Source of the DNA: Candidatus Zixiibacteriota bacterium
GTDB taxonomy: Bacteria > Zixibacteria > MSB-5A5 > GN15 > FEB-12
DNA: 64,000 nt
NCBI GenBank assembly: GCA_029860345.1
Contig: JAOUBJ010000015.1
Span: 1-64,000 of the forward strand
Direction: 5' to 3'
Part shown: piece by piece, positions 2,427 to 57,967 of the stretch
Layout of the letters: every line of letters starts with the position of its first letter
How positions within the stretch are numbered: position 1 is the stretch's first letter
Notes under the pieces: generated by a model
What the model was told of the DNA's origin: nothing
What the model saw: only the letters and a program-made list of their open reading frames with translations
Databases searched by the model: none
Made by a program: the position numbers and the translations under genes

Positions 2427-2733
2427 TAAGCTCCTGGTGATGAATTGATATTCGCCCCAAACAAGGTATGAGGCGGCCACACGCCGCGCCCCGTGAAAAT
2501 GTCAACCAGCTGTCACTCCGGGCCTTGACCCGGAGTCCATATTCTCTTGGGCCGTCATGCGATCCCAGCTGTGTTGGCAGGTCTGAAGACAGACCTGCCC
2601 TACAAAACTATTCCACCGACCCCTTGCGTACACCAGGAATCCCACCCGACGCAAAGCCTCTGGGTGGGGTACCAAAGGTGGTGCATGTCATACTGAGCGC
2701 AGTCGAAGTATGTGCCCACCACAACCTCACCTG
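2427..2733. other. Convergent intergenic region packed with dispersed repeats
   Basis: Three short repeats follow one another between the convergent genes. A family D fragment (CCCCAAACAAGGTATGAG) lies at 2456-2490. A family B hairpin (CCACCC...GGGTGG around GACGCAAAGCCTCT) lies at 2640-2673. A family E fragment (TACTGAGCGCAGTCGAAGTA) lies at about 2692-2712. No gene is supported. Confidence 0.6.
2640..2673 (+). repeat. Family B hairpin repeat, copy 1
   Basis: CCACCC and GGGTGG form a perfect 6-bp stem closing a 14-base loop that reads GACGCAAAGCCTCT, followed by GGTACC. Near-identical copies occur at 18119-18155 and 18229-18270. All three lie between genes. Confidence 0.7.
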
Positions 2734-6111: not shown

Positions 6112-6547
6112 CTTTTCCTCCAGCGATGTTACGGACTCAATACCTGCGAGTAAGGATGTGTAAATTGTGACTCACGACTCCAATATAGCCGAATCCCGGC
6201 CACTGGCAAGGCAAAACGTCTGTGCGTACATCGGAGTTAGGCCGTTCTCCCGCCCCAGTGTTTGTTGAAATACCCACGGAACCGTCATGGCGAGGTATCC
6301 GGAATCTCGCGGGATGCGGTGGCCGTCTCAGTTTGTTGCACAGGTGTCATGCCGAGCCGAGTCGAGGCATGAGATTGCCGCGCTTCACCGCCCCGCCTGC
6401 GGCGGGGATCACTCGCAATGGCGCCAAACGGGACGTTGTCAAAGGGTCCCGCAGGCGGGGTGGAGTGGCCACTTATCCAAAAAAAGACCACCCCTGTCTC
6501 TCAACAGGAGTGGTCATCCAATTCAATTCAGAGTTGGCGGCGTGAGA
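6112..6547. other. Intergenic region with repeats and a terminator
   Basis: Between two minus-strand genes. It contains a family E repeat fragment at about 6352-6372 (TGCCGAGCCGAGTCGAGGCA), then at 6370-6420 a repeat of the form GAGATTGCCGCG...CTCGCAATGG that is also present at 54213-54262. The terminator of the TSP3 gene is at 6479-6515. No supported gene. Confidence 0.6.
6479..6515 (-). terminator. Rho-independent terminator of the TSP3/dockerin gene
   Basis: On the minus strand, GACCACTCCTGT and ACAGGGGTGGTC form a 12-bp stem with one mismatch and a short loop (6486-6515), followed directly by a run of seven T. It lies about 33 bases beyond the stop codon of the TSP3 gene. Confidence 0.8.
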
Positions 6548-9500
6548 TTACCAGGGGCAATCCACCGGAGGCGGTCCGCCGCCGAACATATAGTCAACAA
6601 CGTAGACGAGATCGGCGATATTGATCTCACCGTCACCGTTGACGTCACCCTCCTCATAGCATGGCAGCGCCGGGCCGCCGTTGAACATATAGTCGACCAA
6701 GTATACCAGGTCGGCAACGTTCAACTGCTCACCCATGAGGCCGTCAATGTTGCCGCGGATGCCTTCGCAACACCCGTCGCATACATCCCCGATACCATCG
6801 TCATCGATGTCGCTCTGATCCGGGTTCCAATCGTCCGGACAGTTGTCGCAGACATCTCCGACACCGTCCAGCGAATCGAGATCGCTGTCTTCCTGACCGG
6901 GGTTTGCGTCGTCCGGGCAGTTGTCACAGGCCGAACCCAGATCGTCACCGTCAGGATCTTCCTGGCCGGGGTTGTGATCGGTCGGACAGTTGTCCACGTC
7001 GCCGCAATGACCGTCGTTGTCGATGTCATTGTCCGGATCGTCGGGGCATTCATCGCAGACATCGCCGATACCGTCGTTGTCGCGATCCTCCTGGTTGGCA
7101 TTGGAAACATCGGGACAGTTGTCACAGGCGTTGCCCAGGATGTCGCCGTCGTTGTCCTCCTGTCCAGTGTTGGCATCCTCGGGGCAGTTGTCACAGAGGT
7201 CACCGACATCATCACCGTCGCCGTCCTCCTGACCGGAGTTGGCGTCGATAGGACAGTTGTCGCAGACGTCACCGACCGTGTCACTATCACCGTCCGCCTG
7301 GTTGGTGTTCTGATCATCCGGACAGTTGTCGCAGACGTCACCTACGGCGTCAAGGTCGCTATCGGACTGATTGGTGTTGGCATCATCCGGACAGTTGTCG
7401 CAGACGTTGCCTACGTTATCATTGTCGTTATCGGCCTGATCGGTATTAGGCTGGTTGGTGCAGTTGTCGCAGGTGTTGCCGACATCGTCGCCGTCGGTAT
7501 CGGTCTGATTCGTGTTCGGATCGTCCGGACAATTGTCACAGGCGTCTCCGACCGTGTCGTTGTCACCGTCACTCTGCGAAGGATTGGCGTCTTCCTGACA
7601 GTTGTCACAGGCATTGCCGACACCGTCAGTGTCGTTGTCTTCCTGACCCGCGTTGGGCGTGTCGGGACAATTATCGTCGGGGCAAGTATTGGCCGGGAAG
7701 CCCGGATTACCGGCGCCGTCGTCATCGGTGTCGGTGCAGTCATCGCAGGCATCACCAAAGGTGTCACCGTCGGCGTTTTCCTGCAGCACATTGTGCACCG
7801 TGGGACAGTTGTCCACATCGGCGCAATGACCGTCGCCGTCAATGTCGTTGTCCGGATCGTTGGGACAAGCGTCGCAGGCGTTGCCGATACCGTCGTTGTC
7901 GTCATCTTCCTGGAAGGGATTGATGTCGTCAGGACAGTTGTCGCAGGCGTCGCCTATCTGATCGCCGTCGGCATCAGCTTGCGACGGGTTGGCATCGGTG
8001 GGACAGTTGTCGCAAATGTCACCTACGCCGTCAGTGTCGGCATCTTGCTGGCCGGGGTTCGGATCATCCGGACAGTTGTCGGTGGCACAGGTATTGGCCG
8101 GGAAACCCGGATCGCCGGCGCCGTCACCGTCGGTATCGGTGCAGTCGTCGCAAGCATCACCAAAAGTGTCACCATCGGCATTTTCCTGAAGCACATTGTG
8201 CACCGTGGGACAGTTGTCCACATCGGCGCAATGGCCGTCACCGTCGATGTCGTTGTCCGGATCGTTGGGACACGGGTCGCAAACGTTGCCGATACCGTCG
8301 CTGTCGTCATCCTCCTGGAAGGGATTGATGTCGTTGGGACAGTTGTCGCAGGCGTCACCGATCTGATCGTTGTCGGCATCGGCTTGTGACGGGTTGGCAT
8401 CGGTGGGACAGTTGTCACAGATGTCACCGACGCCGTCGGTGTCGCCATCTTCCTGACCGGCGTTCGGATCGTCCGGACAGTTATCATCGGGGCAGGTGTT
8501 GGCCGGGAAGCCCGGATCGCCGGCGCCGTCACCGTCGGTATCGGTGCAGTCGTCGCAGTCATCGCCAAAGGTGTCACCATCGGCGTTTTCCTGACCCGGG
8601 TTATGCACCGTGGGACAGTTGTCCACATCTGCGCAATGTCCGTCGCCGTCGCCGTCATTGTTGGGATCGTTAGGACACGGGTCGCAAAGATCGCCGATGT
8701 TGTCACCGTCGCCGTCGGCCTGATTGGTGTTGGGCGTGGTGGGACAGTTGTCGCAGGCGTCACCGACTGTGTCGTTATCACCGTCGGTCTGACTGGGGTT
8801 GGCCGTGGCCGGACAGTTGTCACAAACATCACCCACACCGTCGGTATCGGCATCAGCCTGACCGGGATTGGGGGTGTTGGGACAGTTGTCGGTCGGGCAG
8901 GTGTTGACCGGGAAGCCGGGATCGCCGAATCCGTCACCGTCGGTGTCGGTGCAGGTGTCGCAGTCGTCACCTATGTTGTCACCATCGGTATCCTGCTGAC
9001 CGGGGTTGGCTACTGTAGGACAGTTGTCGCAGTCGTCACCCTTGCCGTCGTTGTCACCGTCGGCCTGAGTCGGATTGGGATCGGTGGGACAGTTGTCGCA
9101 CAGATTACCCACGTCGTCGCCGTCGGTATCCATCTGGTTGGTGTTGGGATCGGTCGGACAGTTGTCACAAACGTCACCAACCGTGTCACCATCGCCGTCG
9201 GCCTGGTTTGTGTTGGGATCGACGGGACAGTTGTCGCAAACGTCACCGACCGTATCGGTGTCACCATCGGCCTGATTGGTGTTGGCGTCGGTGGGACAGT
9301 TGTCGCAAACGTCGCCGACGTTATCGTTGTCACCGTCGTTTTGGTTCGTATTGGGATCGGTCGGACAGTTGTCGCAGAAGTCGCCCACTGCGTCGGTGTC
9401 GACGTCCGACTGGTTGGTGTTGGCCACGTCAGGACAGTTGTCACAGACGTTGCCGACGTCGTCGTTGTCGTTATCGGCCTGATTACCATTCAGGTCGTTG

Positions 9501-10807
9501 GGACAGTTGTCGCAAACATCACCGACATTGTCGCCATCGACGTCGGCCTGGTTAGTGTTGGGATCGGCCGGACAGTTGTCGCACACATCGCCGACATTGT
9601 CACCGTCACCGTCGGCCTGATTGGCGTTGGGATGAGCGAGACAGTTGTCGCAGTCGTCACCCACACCGTCGCCGTCCCAGTCGGCCTGGCCGGGGTTGTT
9701 GGTGTTGGGACAGTTGTCACAGGCGTCGCCGATACCGTCAAAGTCTGCATCCTGCTGGCCCGGGTTGGGCGTGGAGGGGCAGTTATCCTGCTGGCAGGTG
9801 TTGTTCGGGAAGCCGGGATCGCCGAAGCCGTCACCATCGGTGTCGGTGCAGTCATCGCAGGCGTCGCCGATATTGTCACCGTCGGCGTCTTCCTGTCCGG
9901 GGTTATTAACGGTGGGACAGTTGTCGACATCGCCGCAGTGTCCGTCGTTGTCGATGTCGTTGTCCGGATCGTTCGGACAATCATCGCAGAGGTCACCAAT
10001 GCCGTCGCCGTCGGAGTCATTTTGGTTGGGGTTGGGCGTGGTGGGGCAATTGTCGCAATCGTCACCGACCGTGTCGCTATCGCCGTCGGCCTGGGTGGGG
10101 TTGTCGACGGTTGGACAGTTGTCGCAAGCGTCACCGAACTGGTCTGTATCGTTATTCTCCTGCCCGGAATTGAAAGTCGACGGACAGTTGTCACAGGCGT
10201 CGGCCGTGCCGTCGCCGTCTGAGTCATTGGGATCATCCCAGCAGGCATCTACCGTCCAACAATGGGGACCGTCCCAGGTGGGGAAATATGAGATGCCGCC
10301 GCTCTTGGCCCACTTCCAAACTCCGGTAGGAGGAAAGTAACTGGAGTCAAGGCAGATAGTCTTTCCGTTGTCGAGGTCGCTGACAGGGCCTATCGTCAGC
10401 GCGTAGGCGGTGTCGTTGAAGCCGGTCGGCAAACCGGCCGAGGTCATGCGCGAACCGGAGAAAGCCATGGTGTCAGCGCCGCAGCCATCTACGCCAAACG
10501 GTATGATCTGAAAGAGCAAATTGAAAGCGGCTCCCCAGGCCAGAGTGCCCAGAGTATCACCGGTCAATGTGGTCCAGCAGGCGCCGTCGGGGGAATATAC
10601 TTGCCAGGCGTTGGCTATGCCATCGACCGTACCGCCGGTATTATTGTCCAGCCGAAGGACAAAACGAACCGGGTTGTCGGTTGGTATTCGACCACCCGCG
10701 GTCAATCCGTCGACATGATCGAGCGTGAAAGCTCCGTCCTGTGCCATTGCTGTTCCGAACGAGAACAACAGCGCCACCATGAGTAGTTTTAACAAGGTGC
10801 CTCTCAT
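6548..10807 (-). CDS. Giant thrombospondin type 3 repeat protein with N-terminal LDHVDGL module and C-terminal dockerin
   Basis: 1419 residues. Signal peptide about 1-22 (ending FGTAMAQ). Residues 29-186 are the same LDHVDGL...WDGPHC module found twice in the neighbouring T9SS-tagged protein. Residues about 190-1350 are some fifty Asp-rich calcium-binding thrombospondin type 3 units (typical core [16 protein letters not shown]), extremely acidic and Cys-paired. Part of the array is built from a larger unit of about 136 residues, repeated with high DNA identity. Residues about 1353-1419 are a dockerin-like pair ([16 protein letters not shown] and [19 protein letters not shown]). The expected role is a long, calcium-stiffened surface or extracellular stalk; no catalytic domain is present. 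The start has GGAG eight bases upstream of ATG. Because of the repetition, assembly errors in copy number are possible. Confidence 0.88.
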
Positions 10808-12320: not shown

Positions 12321-12681
12321 CCCATGAATGGGTCTCTCGCACTTCGTGCATGGCAGCATCGCTGGGATGCTGCCCTACTCCTGAAAGTGGCCTTGGGCGA
12401 CCCCGCCCGACGCTGAAAGTTCGACCTCATGCTGAGCGAAGTCGAAGCATGAACTTCTAGGCAGATTCACCCTTCGACTCCGCTCCGGGTGAGGATGGAA
12501 GGGCGCGCAGCGCGAAAAAGGGATTTGTCACCCCCTCCGAAACTGGGTGGCACCCTCAAACCCGGTTTGGGGGTGTTAAGTGGATGTCTGCCGCTCACAA
12601 GAACCACGTGAATCGAAGATGGATTCCGGGTCAAAGCCCGGAATGGCAGACCGGGTAGCAGCCGTCTACACTAACTTAGTA
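12321..12681. other. Intergenic repeat cluster
   Basis: Between two convergent genes lie the left half of a family A repeat (12393-12413), two family E fragments (about 12431-12452 and 12470-12495), a family C hairpin (CACCCTCAAACC with GGTTTGGGGGTG, about 12550-12576) and an ATTCCGGG...CCCGGAAT inverted repeat (about 12624-12645). No gene is supported. Confidence 0.6.
12393..12413 (+). repeat. Family A repeat, left half only (copy 2)
   Basis: TTGGGCGACCCCGCCCGACG: the left hairpin without the right palindrome. Follows the symporter gene. Confidence 0.6.
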
Positions 12682-18092: not shown

Positions 18093-18118
18093 CGGCTTGC
18101 CTGCGTCGTTGCACATAA

Positions 18119-18155
18119 ACCCACCCGGCGCAACGCCTCTGGGTGGCCTACCGTG
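18119..18155 (+). repeat. Family B hairpin repeat, copy 2
   Basis: Same element as at 2640-2673: CCACCC, loop containing GCGCAACGCCTCT, GGGTGG. Two bases differ in the loop and the trailing GGTACC is degenerate. Confidence 0.65.
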
Positions 18156-18228
18156 GTGTACGTGCTCGTGCGCCACGGGGCAGGGGCAGACCGACAGACC
18201 CGTTTATGTGAGAGCGTCTGCCGCCCAC

Positions 18229-18270
18229 CAAACCCACCCGCCGCAAAGCCTCTGGGTGGGGTACCGTGCC
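18229..18270 (+). repeat. Family B hairpin repeat, copy 3
   Basis: CCACCC and GGGTGG surround GCCGCAAAGCCTCT, followed by GGTACC. It is about 110 bases from copy 2, so the two stand in tandem after the peptidase gene. Confidence 0.65.
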
Positions 18271-21833: not shown

Positions 21834-22172
21834 TATCACAACCTCCATATCACCAAATAAGTCGTTTCCTGTCTTGTCAATAGGCCGTTTAGCCTTTTGA
21901 TCGCGAGCAAATCTACGAAAACTGCAAACGTTTGTCATCGTTTTTTTTGTACGTTTATTATTTGCGAGGGGGGGGGTGATTCGACACACGATTCAAGTGG
22001 TGTTGGGCGACCTCGCCCGACACCGGCCATCCAACCCAGTGGCTGTCAGGCGTGTCAGATGACAGCACCCACACCGTAACGCACGTCACCTGTTGGTGCA
22101 GTGGCTTATTCAACAGTTTCTACCGTCGTGATATAATGTCGGGTTCAGTTGGCCGGTTCGATTGTGATCGTC
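21834..22172. other. Intergenic region with family A repeat
   Basis: Contains a run of ten G (about 21968-21977), then family A copy 3 at 22002-22076. Nothing else recognised; no gene supported. Confidence 0.5.
22002..22076 (+). repeat. Family A dispersed double-hairpin repeat, copy 3
   Basis: TGTTGGGCGACCTCGCCCGA followed by CACC, then GTGGCTGTCAGGCGTGTCAG and GACAGCACCC. The left hairpin is intact; the right palindrome has degenerated from TCAGGCGAGTCGCCTGA. Confidence 0.7.
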
Positions 22173-33989: not shown

Positions 33990-35264
33990 ATGAAGACAGA
34001 ATTCGGCATCCTCGGAACTTCAATCTGGCAACAGAACATGTCGCTCCTGGAGCGGTTGACCATAAACCGTGACGAGCGTGAGAGAATTCTACCTGAGTTG
34101 AAAACTCATCTGGGTGTGGATGAGTTGATATTCCTTTCGACCTGTAACCGCGTCGAGTTTATTTATGCTACCTCCTCAGAGGCCGGTTCCAGCCGGATTC
34201 TCCACAAGTTGATCGACTACTTCTGCTGCAACGGCAACAAGCTGAATTTCTTCCCCAACGATTTCTACCACTACTCAGGTCGCGAAGCCATCACGCATCT
34301 GTTCCGCACCGTGTCTTCGCTTGAGTCTTTGGTTGTTGGTGAGACCCAGATAACCGGTCAGTTCAAACAGGCGTTCCAGGATGCCACCGAGTCCGGAATC
34401 GCCGGTTCGTCGTTGGATGCTCTGGCTCGCCAGGCTCTGGTCGTGGCCAAGCAGGTCAAGCGCGACACATCGATTGGCGTCGGTGCCGTGTCGATGGCCT
34501 CGTTGGCCTCAACGCAGTTGGAGCCTATCCTGAACAAGAAGTCCGTTCCGGTGATCGCGCTGGTCGGTTCCGGCGAGATGACCTCCAAAGTAGCCCGGTA
34601 CATCCAGGAGATGGGCGAGGCCGAATTGTTGTTTGTAAACCGTACTCTGGCCAAAGCTGAGCAGTTGGCCGAGCAGTTCGGTGGCCGCGCGGTGTCACTT
34701 GCAGACTTCCAGCGGCAGCCTGAGCCGGTCGCTGCTATCGTTTCAGCAACCGCCGCTATCGAGCCGGTCTTTGACGGTGACTTCCTGAACCGCCTAAAGA
34801 CGAACGATCAGCCGATAATTTGTGTCGACCTGGCTATCCCACGTGACTTTGCCGACGTTTTCGGTCACTCCGACAACGTGACGCTGGTCGACATCCACGC
34901 CCTTAAGTCGCACGTTCAGGGTAATCTTCGTCAGAAGTTTGTCGAAGCGGGCAAAGCTGATGAAATCGTGCGCGCCGCGGTCAACAAGTTCATGTCCGAC
35001 CGTATCGAAGTGTCACTCAAGCCGATTTTTCATGATAGTTATCAGGCGTCCATTGAACTGGCTCGTGAAGCCATCGATGATTTGTTCGCCAACCGCAAGA
35101 GCAGTCTGCCGGCCGAGGAAAAGGAGCGCGTCATGCGCCTGGTCACTCGTCTGGTGGGACACTCAGCATTTCAGCCGGCGCGTTTGCTGGCCGATCGCCT
35201 CGCTCAGTCCCGCACTGAGTTGAATCTGAGCGACGCGCCTGTCATGCGTAAGGCCGCAGTGTGA
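33990..35264 (+). CDS. hemA: Glutamyl-tRNA reductase
   Basis: 424 residues. Reduces glutamate attached to tRNA-Glu to glutamate-1-semialdehyde with NADPH, the first committed step of the C5 heme pathway, in the cytoplasm. The catalytic cysteine is Cys52 in the signature FLSTCNRVEF. VVGETQITGQFKQAF is the conserved family motif of the catalytic domain, and VIALVGSGEMTSKVA is the start of the NADPH-binding Rossmann fold (about 188). The C-terminal dimerisation helix region follows about 320. First gene of the operon; its TGA overlaps the GTG start of hemC (GTGA). The nearest ribosome binding site (AAAAGG, 33966-33971) is rather far from the ATG, so translation initiation may be weak. Full-length for the family. 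Confidence 0.97.
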   Translation: MKTEFGILGTSIWQQNMSLLERLTINRDERERILPELKTHLGVDELIFLSTCNRVEFIYATSSEAGSSRILHKLIDYFCCNGNKLNFFPNDFYHYSGREAITHLFRTVSSLESLVVGETQITGQFKQAFQDATESGIAGSSLDALARQALVVAKQVKRDTSIGVGAVSMASLASTQLEPILNKKSVPVIALVGSGEMTSKVARYIQEMGEAELLFVNRTLAKAEQLAEQFGGRAVSLADFQRQPEPVAAIVSATAAIEPVFDGDFLNRLKTNDQPIICVDLAIPRDFADVFGHSDNVTLVDIHALKSHVQGNLRQKFVEAGKADEIVRAAVNKFMSDRIEVSLKPIFHDSYQASIELAREAIDDLFANRKSSLPAEEKERVMRLVTRLVGHSAFQPARLLADRLAQSRTELNLSDAPVMRKAAV

Positions 35265-36175
35265 CCCCCACAAAACTGATCATAGGTTCCCGCGGTTCCG
35301 ATCTGGCTTTGTATCAAGCCAACTTTATCCGTGACACATTGGTGCGTGATCGTAGCTGTGAGGTCGAAATCAAGATTATCAAGACCACCGGCGACAAGAT
35401 CGACTACGTGTCGTTCGACAAAATGGAGGGGAAAGGATTCTTCACCAAAGAACTCGAAGAAGCGCTGACGGCCAAAGAGATCGATCTGGCTGTGCACTCA
35501 TTGAAGGATTTGATGACCTCACAACCGGAGGGATTGAAACTCGGCGCCGTTGGCTATCGTGCCGACCGCCGGGAGATGCTTCTGATAAACAAAGCATCAG
35601 TGTCGGGTGAAAACGTCATCCCGGTCAAAGAGGGCGGCCTGATCGGTACCAGTTCCAACCGACGCAAGTGCCAGATTGCGCACCTCAACCCTAACGTGAT
35701 TATGAAGGACCTGCGCGGCAATGTCCCGACTCGAATTAGGAAATTGCGTGAGGCGATGTACGACGCTATCATAATCGCCGCTGCCGGGGTTACCCGGTTG
35801 GAGTTGGACGTTTCCGACCTCGAAGTTGTCCTGCTGGATGCCGACCGATTTTTGCCGGCGCCGGCACAGGGGATCTTGGGGATTCAGATTCGTTCCGGTG
35901 ATGACAGGGTCGAACAGGTAGTCTCGAAATTGGGCTCAGATCGGGATGCTGTTGCTGCCTCACTGGAACGCGGTCTGCTCGCACGATTCGATTCCGGCTG
36001 CTCTTTGCCGCTGGGTGTAGACTCCGATATGTCAGGTTCAGAGATGCGCCTGACGGCTGTTTTGGGTGTGGGCGAGGCCGATAGTTGGTCCGGTCTCAAA
36101 CGGGTCGAGATTGTCGGTACCGACGTTGATCGAATCGTCGACGATGCATTCGATGCACTGAACAGTGGGGAGTAG
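35261..36175 (+). CDS. hemC: Porphobilinogen deaminase (hydroxymethylbilane synthase)
   Basis: 304 residues. Condenses four porphobilinogen units into linear hydroxymethylbilane on a covalently attached dipyrromethane primer. Visible features: N-terminal IIGSRGSDLALYQA, the active-site Asp in LAVHSLKDLM, the arginine-rich substrate site IGTSSNRRKCQI and DLRGNVPTRIRKL, and the cofactor-attachment Cys247 in FDSGCSLPLGV. The start is GTG, overlapping the hemA stop by four bases, so the pair is translationally coupled. hemD follows after two bases. Typical family length is about 300-315 residues. Confidence 0.97.
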   Translation: MTPTKLIIGSRGSDLALYQANFIRDTLVRDRSCEVEIKIIKTTGDKIDYVSFDKMEGKGFFTKELEEALTAKEIDLAVHSLKDLMTSQPEGLKLGAVGYRADRREMLLINKASVSGENVIPVKEGGLIGTSSNRRKCQIAHLNPNVIMKDLRGNVPTRIRKLREAMYDAIIIAAAGVTRLELDVSDLEVVLLDADRFLPAPAQGILGIQIRSGDDRVEQVVSKLGSDRDAVAASLERGLLARFDSGCSLPLGVDSDMSGSEMRLTAVLGVGEADSWSGLKRVEIVGTDVDRIVDDAFDALNSGE

Positions 36176-36177
36176 CC

Positions 36178-36915
36178 ATGCGGTTGGGCGTTACGCGTGC
36201 TGTCGAGCAGTTGTCAGTACTTTCATCACGCGCATCTATTCAGGGGATTGAGATAGTCGCGTTGCCGATGACCCATCACCAGCCATTGCCGTTTGAATGG
36301 CCTGCCGGTGTCTCTCCCAACCAAGTCGACTGGCTATTCTTCACGAGCGCCAACGGCGTGCGAGGTTTCTTTGAACAGCTTGATGGTTCACCCTTCGACT
36401 CCGCTCAGGGTGAGGTTGGGGGAGCTCAGGGTGAGGTGGCTGGTGCCCGACCCAAGATCGCCGCGGTTGGTGACAAAACAACTCAGGCGCTGAAAGGGGC
36501 CGGGTGGACTGTCAGCTTTCAACCGACCGTGGCGAACGGTGAAGCGCTGTTTCGCGAGTTCGTTGGCTCGCATGTGGATGCCAAAGGAATGGTTTTTTAT
36601 GCACGCGCCAAACGGGTGAATTTCGATCCTGATGAGTTGTTCGCAAAAACCGGGTTCGACTACTACCCGATTATCTGCTACGAGACTAAAACCGCCGAGG
36701 TAAACCAACAGGTCGTTGCCATGCTTGAGGACAAAGATTATATTCTGTTCACTGCGCCATCGGCGGTGCGCGCATATGACGAGAAGTTTGGTCCGCCGAA
36801 AGCGATGCTTATTGCGATTGGACCGACTACAGCATCGGCTATGACCAACTGTGGATGGACAAAGTTCATGACTATGAAACAGCCCGATGTCGATCGGGTG
36901 CTGGAGTATCTGTGA
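36178..36915 (+). CDS. hemD: Uroporphyrinogen-III synthase, with an in-frame repeat insertion
   Basis: 245 residues. Closes hydroxymethylbilane into the asymmetric uroporphyrinogen III ring. HemD proteins are poorly conserved, but the pattern is clear: a two-lobed protein with DWLFFTSANGVRGFFEQL, KIAAVGDKTTQALKGAGW, YYPIICYETK and ILFTAPSAVRAYDEKFG, in an operon with the other hem genes. Residues 71-90 (SPFDSAQGEVGGAQGEVAGA) are an insertion between the first lobe's helix and the KIAAVGD strand. The corresponding DNA (36389-36443) matches the dispersed family E repeat found between genes elsewhere in the window. The reading frame stays open, so the enzyme may remain functional. The stop overlaps the hemB start (TGATG). 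Confidence 0.92.
   Translation: MRLGVTRAVEQLSVLSSRASIQGIEIVALPMTHHQPLPFEWPAGVSPNQVDWLFFTSANGVRGFFEQLDGSPFDSAQGEVGGAQGEVAGARPKIAAVGDKTTQALKGAGWTVSFQPTVANGEALFREFVGSHVDAKGMVFYARAKRVNFDPDELFAKTGFDYYPIICYETKTAEVNQQVVAMLEDKDYILFTAPSAVRAYDEKFGPPKAMLIAIGPTTASAMTNCGWTKFMTMKQPDVDRVLEYL
36389..36443 (+). repeat. Family E repeat inserted in frame in hemD
   Basis: CCCTTCGACTCCGCTCAGGG followed by TGAGG, then a second partial copy GCTCAGGGTGAGGT. The core matches intergenic CCCTTCGACTCCGCTCCGGG at 12470. It encodes residues 71-90 of HemD. Confidence 0.7.
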
Positions 36916-37895
36916 TGGAACCGACAAATCGTCCCCGCCGACTGAGGCGTACCAAACTCATTCGGGAGTTGGTCGGTCAGACAACGGTTGCCACCGAGCG
37001 TCTGATCCAGCCGTACTTTGTTACCGACGGCGTGGGTGTAAAAGTTGAGATCGGCGGTATGCCGGGGATATATCGTGAATCGGTTGACTCCCTGATGGAG
37101 TCTATCGAGAGTGACTACAAGCTCGGCCTCGACAAAGTGATGCTTTTCGGTGTGACCGACCGTAAAGATGCCAAAGCGTCGAGCGCTGCCGATGACAAGA
37201 ACCCGGTGGTGGCGGCCGTCAAAAAACTCAAAGACAAGTTCGGTGACGACCTGTTCGTCTCCGCCGACGTTTGCCTCTGCGCCTATACCGACACAGGGCA
37301 TTGCGGTGTTACCATCGACGGTGAAATCGACAACGACTCCTCCCTGCCGATTCTGGCCAAGATGGCCCTGGTGCTGGCCCAGGCCGGGTGCGATTGTGTG
37401 GCGCCTTCGGACATGATGGATGGACGTGTCGGCGCTATTCGCGAAACGCTCGAAGCCCACGATCTGGCCAACACGATCATAATGGCCTACACGGCCAAGT
37501 ATGCATCGTCCTATTACGGACCTTTCCGCGAGGCGGCCGGTTCGGCTCCGGGCAAGGGCGACCGTAAGGGATACCAGATGGACTTCCGCAATCGGACCGA
37601 AGCGTTGCGTGAATTGATGCTCGATGAAGAAGAAGGAGCCGACATCGTAATGGTCAAACCGGCGCTGGCCTACCTGGACATAATCGCAGACTTTCAGCGC
37701 AATACCGAGCTGCCGGTGGCGGCCTACAACGTGTCCGGCGAATATGCCACGGTAAAACTGATGGTTCAAGCCGGACAAGCGGATGAAAAATCGCTCGTAT
37801 TTGAAAACCTCACCGCCATCACGCGGGCCGGGGCGTCAATCATTCTAACATATCACCTGAGGGACATACTAAAAAATGAATGGCGGCAACCCTAA
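36915..37895 (+). CDS. hemB: Delta-aminolevulinic acid dehydratase (porphobilinogen synthase)
   Basis: 326 residues. Condenses two 5-aminolevulinate molecules to porphobilinogen. The two active-site lysines are Lys195 (AYTAKYASSYYGPFREA) and Lys248 (VMVKPALAYLD). Cys120, Cys122 and Cys130 in SADVCLCAYTDTGHCG form the catalytic zinc site, so this is a zinc-type enzyme, not the Asp-rich magnesium type. RNRTEALRE lies in the lid region. The start at 36915 (MEPTNRPRRLRR) overlaps the hemD stop by one base; a longer frame begins inside hemD and is unlikely. hemL begins 20 bases before the end of hemB. Confidence 0.97.
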   Translation: MEPTNRPRRLRRTKLIRELVGQTTVATERLIQPYFVTDGVGVKVEIGGMPGIYRESVDSLMESIESDYKLGLDKVMLFGVTDRKDAKASSAADDKNPVVAAVKKLKDKFGDDLFVSADVCLCAYTDTGHCGVTIDGEIDNDSSLPILAKMALVLAQAGCDCVAPSDMMDGRVGAIRETLEAHDLANTIIMAYTAKYASSYYGPFREAAGSAPGKGDRKGYQMDFRNRTEALRELMLDEEEGADIVMVKPALAYLDIIADFQRNTELPVAAYNVSGEYATVKLMVQAGQADEKSLVFENLTAITRAGASIILTYHLRDILKNEWRQP

Positions 37896-39183
37896 CACCG
37901 ACAAGTCTCAGCGTTTACTCAAGCTGGCCGAAGAAGTAACCCCCGGTGGCGTACACTCACCGGTTCGCGCCTTTGGCGCGGTCGGCGGATGTCCACGCTT
38001 CATCGAGCGCGGCGAAGGACCCTACCTGTTCGACGTCGACGGCAACAAGTACCTCGACTTCTGTTGTTCCTGGGGTCCCTTGATCCTCGGACATGCCGAC
38101 TCCGATGTCGTCGCAGCCGTCAAGGAACAGGTGGATCGCGGCATGACCTTCGGCGCCTCCACCGAGCTTGAGTACAAGCTGGCTCAGTTTATCGTAAGTC
38201 GTATCGAGGTTGTAGACAAGATTCGCTTTGTGTCTTCCGGGACCGAAGCTGTCATGTCGGCGATCAGACTGGCCCGTGGTTTCACCAAGCGCGACCTGAT
38301 TCTTAAATTCGAAGGTTGCTACCACGGCCATTCCGACCATCTGCTGGTCAAAGCCGGCTCGGGGTTGGTGACATTCGGCCAGACAGCGTCGGCGGGCGTA
38401 CCCGATGACATCACCAAAAACACCGTGGTATTACCCTTGGACGACGAAGAGGCGTTGCAGAAGTTCTTCGCCGAATATGGCGACAAACTGGCCGCCGTTA
38501 TCATCGAAGGTGTCCCGGCCAACAACGGACTGCTGATTCAACGTCACGACTACATGCGCCTGTTGCGCACCCTCACCGAACAACACGGCGTTGTGTTGAT
38601 TCTGGACGAAGTGATAACCGGATTTCGCATCGGCTTCGGTGGCGCCACCGAGTATTATGGTATCCGTCCCGACCTGGTAACCTATGGCAAGATCATCGGC
38701 GGCGGCATGCCGGTCGGCGCTTTTGGGGGAAGGGCGGATATAATGGACCATGTCGCGCCACTGGGCGCCGTCTATCAGGCGGGTACGTTATCCGGTAATC
38801 CGGTGGCCATGACAGCCGGTCTGGCTACGCTTGAAAAACTCGCCGCCGACAATATTTACGCTGAGATGGAGAACCGCAACCGACGGTTCGTCTCAGAGAT
38901 TACGACGCGCCTGGCTTCGAGCAGTGTGAACATCGCCGGAGTGGCGTCGATTTTCTGGATACTCTTCCAGCGTGATATTCCGCGTTCGGCAGCTGCAATC
39001 GACTCCGACGGCATCGCGCACTACAACCGGATGCACACGCGCATGCTAAACGCCGGCATCTACCTGCCGCCTTCAGGATACGAGGTCTGTTTCCTATCGA
39101 CGGTGCACACCGATGAAGTTCTGAACGAAGCGGCCGAGACAATCGCCCGTATAATCGGCGAGGAGGCACACCAATGGGCATAA
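37876..39183 (+). CDS. hemL: Glutamate-1-semialdehyde 2,1-aminomutase
   Basis: 435 residues, the standard length. A PLP-dependent enzyme that converts glutamate-1-semialdehyde to 5-aminolevulinate, forming a channelling pair with HemA. PLP-binding Lys272 lies in VTYGKIIGGGMPVGAFGGR, the cofactor-ring Asp244 in LILDEVITGFR, the phosphate-binding loop in VSSGTEAVMSAIRLAR, and YHGHSDHLLVKAGSG is specific to the GSA subgroup. The ATG at 37876 overlaps hemB by 20 bases, preceded by GAGGGAC. The 3' end overlaps hemE by 10 bases. Confidence 0.97.
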   Translation: MNGGNPNTDKSQRLLKLAEEVTPGGVHSPVRAFGAVGGCPRFIERGEGPYLFDVDGNKYLDFCCSWGPLILGHADSDVVAAVKEQVDRGMTFGASTELEYKLAQFIVSRIEVVDKIRFVSSGTEAVMSAIRLARGFTKRDLILKFEGCYHGHSDHLLVKAGSGLVTFGQTASAGVPDDITKNTVVLPLDDEEALQKFFAEYGDKLAAVIIEGVPANNGLLIQRHDYMRLLRTLTEQHGVVLILDEVITGFRIGFGGATEYYGIRPDLVTYGKIIGGGMPVGAFGGRADIMDHVAPLGAVYQAGTLSGNPVAMTAGLATLEKLAADNIYAEMENRNRRFVSEITTRLASSSVNIAGVASIFWILFQRDIPRSAAAIDSDGIAHYNRMHTRMLNAGIYLPPSGYEVCFLSTVHTDEVLNEAAETIARIIGEEAHQWA

Positions 39184-45956: not shown

Positions 45957-46353
45957 AATCAGGCCAGACATAATAGCCCCAACCCCCACACCTGTCAAGA
46001 CGATATTGCCGCGCTCGCAACGGGCTGGGTGGCACCCTCAAACTCGGTTTGGGGGTGACTCTTGAGATTATCCGTCCCAAACAAGGTTTGAGACGGCCAC
46101 CCGCCGATTTTCTTGTAGGGCAGGACCGCTTCTGGTCCTGCCGATTTGGCGGGTTCACGCCGCGGCGCGCAGGCGAAGACGGACCCGCCCTACTCGTTAC
46201 CTTATTCAGTAAGCTCGTGGTGTCGGTCGACCTCGCCCGACACCAGTCTGCCGACGTGCCAGCCGTCAGGCGAGTCACCCGACGGCACCTGCAATCTAAG
46301 GCCCACCACAAACAGTTTTGAAAATTCCCGTCCGATCCGTAAATTCCACTCCA
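45957..46353. other. Repeat-rich intergenic region before rlmN
   Basis: Contains a family C hairpin (about 46027-46057, CACCCTCAAACTCGGTTTGG), a family D copy (about 46076-46106, CCCAAACAAGGTTTGAGACG), a further inverted repeat around 46114-46145 (GGACCGC...GGTCCTG), and family A copy 4 (46221-46295). This is the densest cluster of different repeat families in the window. No gene seen. Confidence 0.55.
46221..46295 (+). repeat. Family A dispersed double-hairpin repeat, copy 4
   Basis: TGTCGGTCGACCTCGCCCGA, CACC, then GTGCCAGCCGTCAGGCGAGT and CACCCGACGGCACC. The right palindrome is well kept with compensating changes (GCCGTCAGG... with ...CCGACGGC). Confidence 0.7.
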
Positions 46354-55938: not shown

Positions 55939-56261
55939 ACTCTTGTTCCTGACACTACCGGGTTGGCGATAAATCGCCATCTTGCACCTCGCGCATTGTG
56001 TCCATATCAGGTTTTAGGTGCTGTTGGGCGACCCCGCCCGACACGTACTGTCCGATCCACTGGCAGTCAGGCCAGTCGCCTGATCGCACTCACACTTACA
56101 CATCTCATTATTGGTAGACTGACCTACAAAAGTCAAACCCGTTGTTATTTCATTCTACCAATTTACACAACTTAGTTTACACTACCAACTACGACACAAG
56201 TTTGACTAATAATCATACGGATCATATCTTGAGCATGAAACAAGAATTAACAGGACACTAC
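55939..56261. other. Divergent intergenic region with family A repeat and shared element
   Basis: Family A copy 5 is at 56022-56095. An element at 56157-56189 resembles 98-130: ACCAATTTACACAA is identical and the next 19 bases share TTTAC, CTA and CA. Upstream in-frame start codons of the next gene lie here but have no ribosome binding site. Confidence 0.5.
56022..56095 (+). repeat. Family A dispersed double-hairpin repeat, copy 5
   Basis: TGTTGGGCGACCCCGCCCGA, CACG, then CCACTGGCAGTCAGGCCAGT and CGCCTGATCGCACTCACA. Both hairpins are close to the consensus. Confidence 0.72.
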
Positions 56262-57452: not shown

Positions 57453-57967
57453 TGAACGGTAGGGTGGGTCCTTCTTCTCCTGCGAGCCACGGCGTGGGCC
57501 CGCCGTTCCGAGGTTGCTAAGCTCACCGCTCACCCCTCGACTGCGCTCGGCGTGACATGGGTGGCCCATCAGCTTGGGGTGTGTTGAACAAGCTTCTCTT
57601 GTGTGTTGCGGTGGGTCTTGCCGATTCGCACCAGCGAATTCGTGTGACCCGCCGTTCTGTCCCAAACTCAGATATAGTTTTTGCCTTTGGAGAATCACGC
57701 GAAGCGCGTGATGTCGGGTCTCTAAGAGAAGAGAGACCCGACCTACTGTTAAGAGGAGTGAGTTCCGGGCCACTCGAAGAGAAGATGGATTCCCGCCTTC
57801 GCGGGAATGACAGGGAGGGACGGGAATGACAGAGTTCGGGCGGCCGTCCCAACCCTGGTTTGGGGCGGACTGGCGGTGAGGAGCATAATCAAACAAGGCC
57901 AGCCATGCCACTCAACCACCCCCTTTCAGCTTGTCTATTCTGCACAGCGGCTTATATTGGGCCGATC
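57453..57967. other. Repeat-rich intergenic region before the MFS gene
   Basis: 515 bases. Family E fragment (CTCGACTGCGCTCGG) at about 57534-57556; GAAGATGGATTCCCGCCTTC followed by GCGGGAATGACAGG (hairpin CCCGCC/GGCGGG type) at about 57779-57812; and a family D-like copy (CCCAACCCTGGTTTGGGGCG) at about 57846-57870. Several short open frames are accidental. Confidence 0.5.

Follow-up and report, generated by a model that had tools for sequence, protein, structure and literature searches.

The closest known counterparts of the repeat reported here are the CGTC REPs (Di Nocera et al. 2013, PMC3733652), whose published members, listed from five phyla, form a stem of 8-9 bp starting AT/AT with a loop of 4-5 nt and occur mainly as head-to-head dimers. 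TGTC and CCTC are named variants of the CGTC tag, and the literature records these REPs without an associated or flanked transposase (PMC3733652). Intragenic REPs have been reported in several species; intragenic CGTC repeats are most numerous in Rickettsia conorii, in which RPE-4 (CGTC-4) and RPE-6 (CGTC-1) both lie in frame within genes (PMC3733652). Here we describe a comparable case in the uroporphyrinogen-III synthase gene hemD of a Candidatus Zixiibacteriota bacterium (genome G000), found in a window of 64,000 nt (contig JAOUBJ010000015.1). The original prediction had likened this locus to Rickettsia palindromic elements, and the likeness extends to the tag, as RPE-4 and RPE-6 are in-gene CGTC-tagged REPs and the hemD repeat carries a TGTC/CCTC tag.

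A dispersed palindromic repeat and its genomic setting

The repeat is an imperfect palindrome of about 26 nt with the consensus TCA-Y-S-C-Y-TCGACT-S-CGCTC-R-G-S-R-TGA, then CA or GG. The original prediction required other genomic copies of the core, and a 20-mer pattern of it found 414 matches with up to three mismatches in the 4.76-Mb genome, whereas the reversed pattern gave only 2. A weight matrix built from repeat copies found 397 in 2.44 Mb (51% of the genome, which is also the extent of the in-gene census) and none in a reversed-sequence control; a first sample of 2.05 Mb gave 348. With a palindromic unit inside the 20-40 nt range of REPs in general, a high copy number and a mostly extragenic distribution near gene 3' ends, the repeat is a REP-type element. 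A search of Rfam matched nothing except a tRNA, and the core string and its variants were absent, in any relevant context, from the literature searched.

The repeat has a stem of 5-7 bp below a mismatched apex of 12 nt, the second pair being C-G or T-A; folded as DNA, it forms a 7-bp stem with a 12-nt loop. Three stem pairs covary, with C-G or T-A at -1/18, C-G or G-C at 0/17 and T-A or C-G at 2/15, and are Watson-Crick in 83-93% of distinct copies compared to 47-60% after shuffling; covariation is absent from the outermost pairs, -4/21 and -3/20. At positions 20-23 most copies have GACA or GAGG (TGTC or CCTC when read on the opposite strand), and this difference separates two subfamilies, TGAC-A and TGAG-G. 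In the 2.05-Mb sample, 29 of 117 copies with the CCTC tag bear a tail of 1-4 extra tandem units of 19-24 nt, each consisting of GCTCAGGGTGAGG and locus-specific flank. In tailed copies such as those at C4:258205, C5:41618 and C4:140798, the units agree within a locus and differ between loci. This composition suggests that tails arise by local stepwise duplication from the 3' half of the hairpin.

Copies that the original prediction had placed at about 12470 and 57534, and in reverse at 2692 and 12431, were all recovered with the weight matrix, and all are intergenic. Those at 2687..2712 (minus strand) and 57531..57556 (plus strand) belong to the TGTC-tag subfamily, as does an additional intergenic copy at 6346..6371 (minus strand), and the copies at 12426-12451 (minus) and 12468-12493 (plus) form an inverted dimer with 42-nt spacing. 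Across the repeat family, inverted neighbors whose tags face outward are most frequent at a spacing of 41-49 nt, with 17 pairs compared to 0 in the other inverted orientation, as a REPIN-like unit would give. Direct-orientation neighbors are common too, and 196 of the 397 copies are singletons. The window also holds a second dispersed palindromic family, TTGGGCGACCYCGCCCGACRC (195-226, 12382-12413, 21992-22023, 46212-46243 and 56013-56044), and the dispersed repeats CCCACCCGNCGCAAAGCCTCTGGGTGGGGTACC (2633-2673, 18112-18152 and 18225-18265) and CCCAAACAAGGTTTGAGACGGCCAC (2449, 29045 and 46069). A large minus-strand ORF at 6776-10144 contains a direct repeat that recurs about 30 times at intervals of 69 nt (23 codons), by appearance of an acidic calcium-binding type.

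Genes were called with a simple codon-usage caller, giving 1632 genes and 83% coding DNA. Intergenic DNA, the remaining 17%, holds 392 of the 397 copies, and the in-gene case in hemD is therefore the exception. Within the 2.05-Mb sample, copies are in excess between convergent genes (116 compared to 64 expected) and in deficit between divergent genes (42 compared to 84), a pattern described for REPs (PMC3733652). The five copies in called genes fall at three loci, with one in hemD, and the search for further in-frame copies that the original prediction had suggested led to two more in-gene loci in this 51% of the genome. One is the linker of a 774-aa DUF7948/SBBP protein (L192:1618-3939; C15:85618-87942 in G000), in which two copies in reverse orientation occupy residues ~60-84. 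The other is a gene for a 210-aa protein with two copies in its C-terminal extension, at and past the end of the alignment to its paralogues. No other ORF of at least 150 codons in the same 51% of the genome spanned a copy with coding-like flanks on both sides.

In the DUF7948 family (relatives at L257, L261, L264 and L265), the linker past the first ~45 residues is highly variable. The congener G005 has another palindrome, GTCATTCCCGCGCAGGCGGGAATCCAC, in frame at this site and read VIPAQAGIH, while the variant in G009 ends with GAGCGGAGTCGAAGGG, and a third repeat, GGGCGGCAGACGCCCTCGTCTGCCCC, occurs in G011 and G028. Peptides read from different in-frame palindromes among these relatives are VTLSAVEG, VIPAQAGIH and GRQTPSSAP. 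The linker is, by these comparisons, a hot spot for palindrome insertion, and disordered linkers seem to collect such elements. A count of 392 intergenic copies against a handful in genes shows that in-gene insertions are strongly purged or avoided, with the variable DUF7948 linker as a place where they survive.

The repeat-derived segment of HemD

Gene hemD (36178..36915, plus strand) encodes 245 aa in an open reading frame, with a HEM4 domain over residues 15-242 (Pfam, E = 5.4e-34). It lies in the order hemA-hemC-hemD-hemB-hemL-like, with hemA (33990-35264) preceding hemC (35261..36175, plus strand) upstream, and hemB (36918..37895, plus strand) followed by a glutamate-1-semialdehyde aminotransferase-like ORF (37876-39183) downstream; the neighbors are named from sequence resemblance. 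Gene hemD gave the single HEM4 match in G000 and, as the sole gene of its kind, is probably functional with the inserted segment in place. All positions invariant among distant HemDs (T56, S57, G98, T101, G215 and T218) are kept. Orthologues of hemC and hemB also flank hemD, or what is left of it, in G002, G001 and G005. In the congeners G001 and G005 (loci L054 and L055), only a deletion remnant lies between them, made up of an MRLGVTRA-like start, part of the middle and the final 33 residues, spread over different frames, and another, different HEM4 gene is present in an open frame of ~525 aa. Together, the remnant and the other gene suggest a replacement of hemD in some members of the genus.

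Residues 71-90 of HemD, SPFDSAQGEVGGAQGEVAGA, are encoded by repeat DNA with the frame kept, as originally predicted. The segment (36388..36447, plus strand) is a composite of a REP head and one 21-nt tandem tail unit. The head, TCACCCTTCGACTCCGCTCAGGGTGAGG, belongs to the CCTC-tag subfamily (36388..36415, plus strand) and encodes residues S71-E79 (SPFDSAQGE), its last base being the first of the V80 codon; this is one of two stop-free frames that the head offers on the strand read in hemD. Its core, CCCTTCGACTCCGCTCAGGG, is exact at 36391-36410, and the window has 2 matches with up to three mismatches compared to 0.01 expected. The motif GCTCAGGGTGAGG at 36403 is repeated at 36424, making the second half of the segment a 21-nt tandem unit. 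Two direct units of 21 nt, each GCTCAGGGTGAGGT plus 7 nt, thus occupy 36403..36444 (plus strand), the first being the 3' half of the head and the second the tail copy. With a weight-matrix score of 49.7 (the top score being 50.5), the hemD copy is among the best 23 of 397, which fits a recent arrival. Two further genomic matches to residues 71-96 of HemD proved to be intergenic, each a copy of the composite element in a frame open by chance.

None of the 15 aligned stand-alone HemDs, which come from the same family and order, has the segment, and their loop from FF..L to the K/R-x-A-x-V-G strand is shorter by 13 residues (by 14 or 15 in two or three cases). The segment is likewise absent from the HemD domains of 5 of 5 longer, fusion-type proteins, and the solved structure 3P9Z is shorter at this site too. 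On these alignments, the insertion is lineage-specific and postdates the split from known relatives; together with the high score of the copy, they uphold the proposal that a dispersed repeat was inserted into the gene. The insert had been put at 20 residues, and while residues 71-90 are indeed repeat-derived, HemD is longer than its relatives by a net 13 residues (39 nt). The flanking loop is 7 residues below what would be expected had 20 residues joined a relative-like loop, so part of the ancestral loop was presumably lost or overwritten. None of the relatives offers an alignable empty site and the nearest HemD is ~50-54% identical; consequently, the exact edges relative to ancestral hemD, and any target duplication, are unreadable. 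An AlphaFold model of HemD (mean pLDDT 82.5) has an unstructured stretch between a helix at 58-66 and a strand at 93-96, with pLDDT below 50 at 78-88. The insert is thus predicted to occupy a floppy surface loop, the location originally proposed, with the flanking helix and strand intact.

Origin of the insertion

We propose, with a probability of roughly 0.88, that a REP-type element entered HemD in the loop between helix and strand and is tolerated there. A palindrome with a CGTC-like tag would have entered the loop after the split from known relatives, its head in the stop-free frame giving SPFDSAQGE, and the 3' half of the head would have been duplicated in tandem beside it over 21 nt (7 codons), which preserved the frame. 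The resulting peptide, merely lengthening an exposed loop, may be a neutral or near-neutral passenger. More generally, the hairpin would enter mostly intergenic DNA and persist within a gene only if reading frame and fold tolerate it. Chance resemblance or an assembly artifact is exceedingly improbable; the locus is known from one draft assembly only, but the window would be expected to hold 0.01 matches to the core, the frame is intact, the head matches the family consensus and the tail resembles those of sister copies. The insertion could also be the first lesion in a dispensable, decaying hemD, as the remnants and the alternative HEM4 gene of G001 and G005 might suggest. We consider this quite unlikely, given that G000 lacks a second HEM4 gene and its hemD is otherwise open and keeps the invariant positions listed above. 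Adoption of the peptide, or of a hairpin in the hemD mRNA, for regulation, stability or interaction of HemD or the hem operon is very unlikely as well. An undamaged palindrome, in frame in the sole HEM4 gene, would be expected of an adopted element, but a recent insertion predicts it equally; moreover, the peptide is predicted by AlphaFold to be disordered, and the hemD strand, folded as RNA, scarcely beats shuffles (z about -0.9 to -1.1).

How the tolerated element reached hemD is a separate matter. We infer mobility of the repeat from its presence and absence, and the chances are about even that it spreads by single-strand DNA transposition of the hairpin, with a Y1/HUH (RAYT-type) transposase acting in trans. 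Five Y1-type transposase (Y1_Tnp) genes are present in G000, and a same-genus genome without any (G002) is also free of copies, although this is one genome. An alternative hypothesis, possible but somewhat doubtful, is that the repeat arrived from an intergenic copy by recombination, gene conversion or template switching, with no transposase involved. Tails that repeat locus-specific flank within a locus point to local, slippage-type duplication, and no transposase is reported in association with CGTC REPs (PMC3733652). REPs are also not enriched around Y1 genes in G000, as 1 of 5 has a REP within 300 nt compared to 21% of all genes. Hundreds of near-identical hairpin copies and inverted dimers of fixed spacing, however, would be hard to produce by recombination alone. 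Over 61 genomes, no clear correlation emerged between Y1 genes and the repeat, and in families f2 and f4 of the order, Y1 genes are numerous and copies almost absent. Neither adjacency (1 of 5, chance level) nor co-occurrence (61 genomes) tied the repeat to a RAYT. It is unlikely, if conceivable, that an orphan Y1 transposase actively mobilizes the repeat as a CGTC-like REP family in a host group new to such elements, while the 3' half of the element extends itself in ~21-nt steps and delivers growable, frame-preserving peptides to surface loops of conserved enzymes.

The hemD insertion is a clean case in which a conserved enzyme gained a peptide from a small palindrome that is probably mobile, and the gene is a handy test bed whose function can be scored by complementation.

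Relation to described palindromic elements

Like the CGTC REP super-family (Di Nocera et al. 2013, PMC3733652), the hemD repeat is a small palindrome in hundreds of copies, biased toward intergenic sites beside gene ends and occasionally in frame, with a TGTC/CCTC tag, an A-T pair opening the stem next to the tag, and no transposase flanked by repeats. In contrast, its stem of 5-7 bp and 12-nt apex differ from the 8-9 bp and 4-5 nt loop of those REPs, its second pair is C-G or T-A, its direct and inverted neighbors are both common, and one subfamily carries a 3' tandem tail. Because tag and distribution agree with the published super-family and stem and loop do not, we name the repeat CGTC-like and place it outside the four published families. 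GTAG-tagged REPs and REPINs with their RAYT transposases (PMC3116915, PMC2817692, PMC8266576) share an imperfect hairpin, a covarying stem and inverted dimers of fixed spacing; unlike these, the hemD repeat lacks a GTAG tag, and Y1 genes are flanked by it at chance level.

RPE-4 and RPE-6 resemble the hemD copy in lying in frame inside genes but differ in sequence and host. The wider RPE phenomenon is matched by in-frame copies in genes whose relatives are without them (hemD and, as a second locus, DUF7948), although copies here occur in few genes, at 3 loci among 1632 called genes in half of the genome. The palindrome GTCATTCCCGCGCAGGCGGGAATCC, in frame in the DUF7948 linker of G005, we take to be dRS3/CGTC-1-like. 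It parallels our repeat in having an in-frame copy at that linker, but its loop sequence is unrelated. REPs within genes, though uncommon, have already been described, and this case adds the sequence of the element, hemD as a target gene and the tandem tail.
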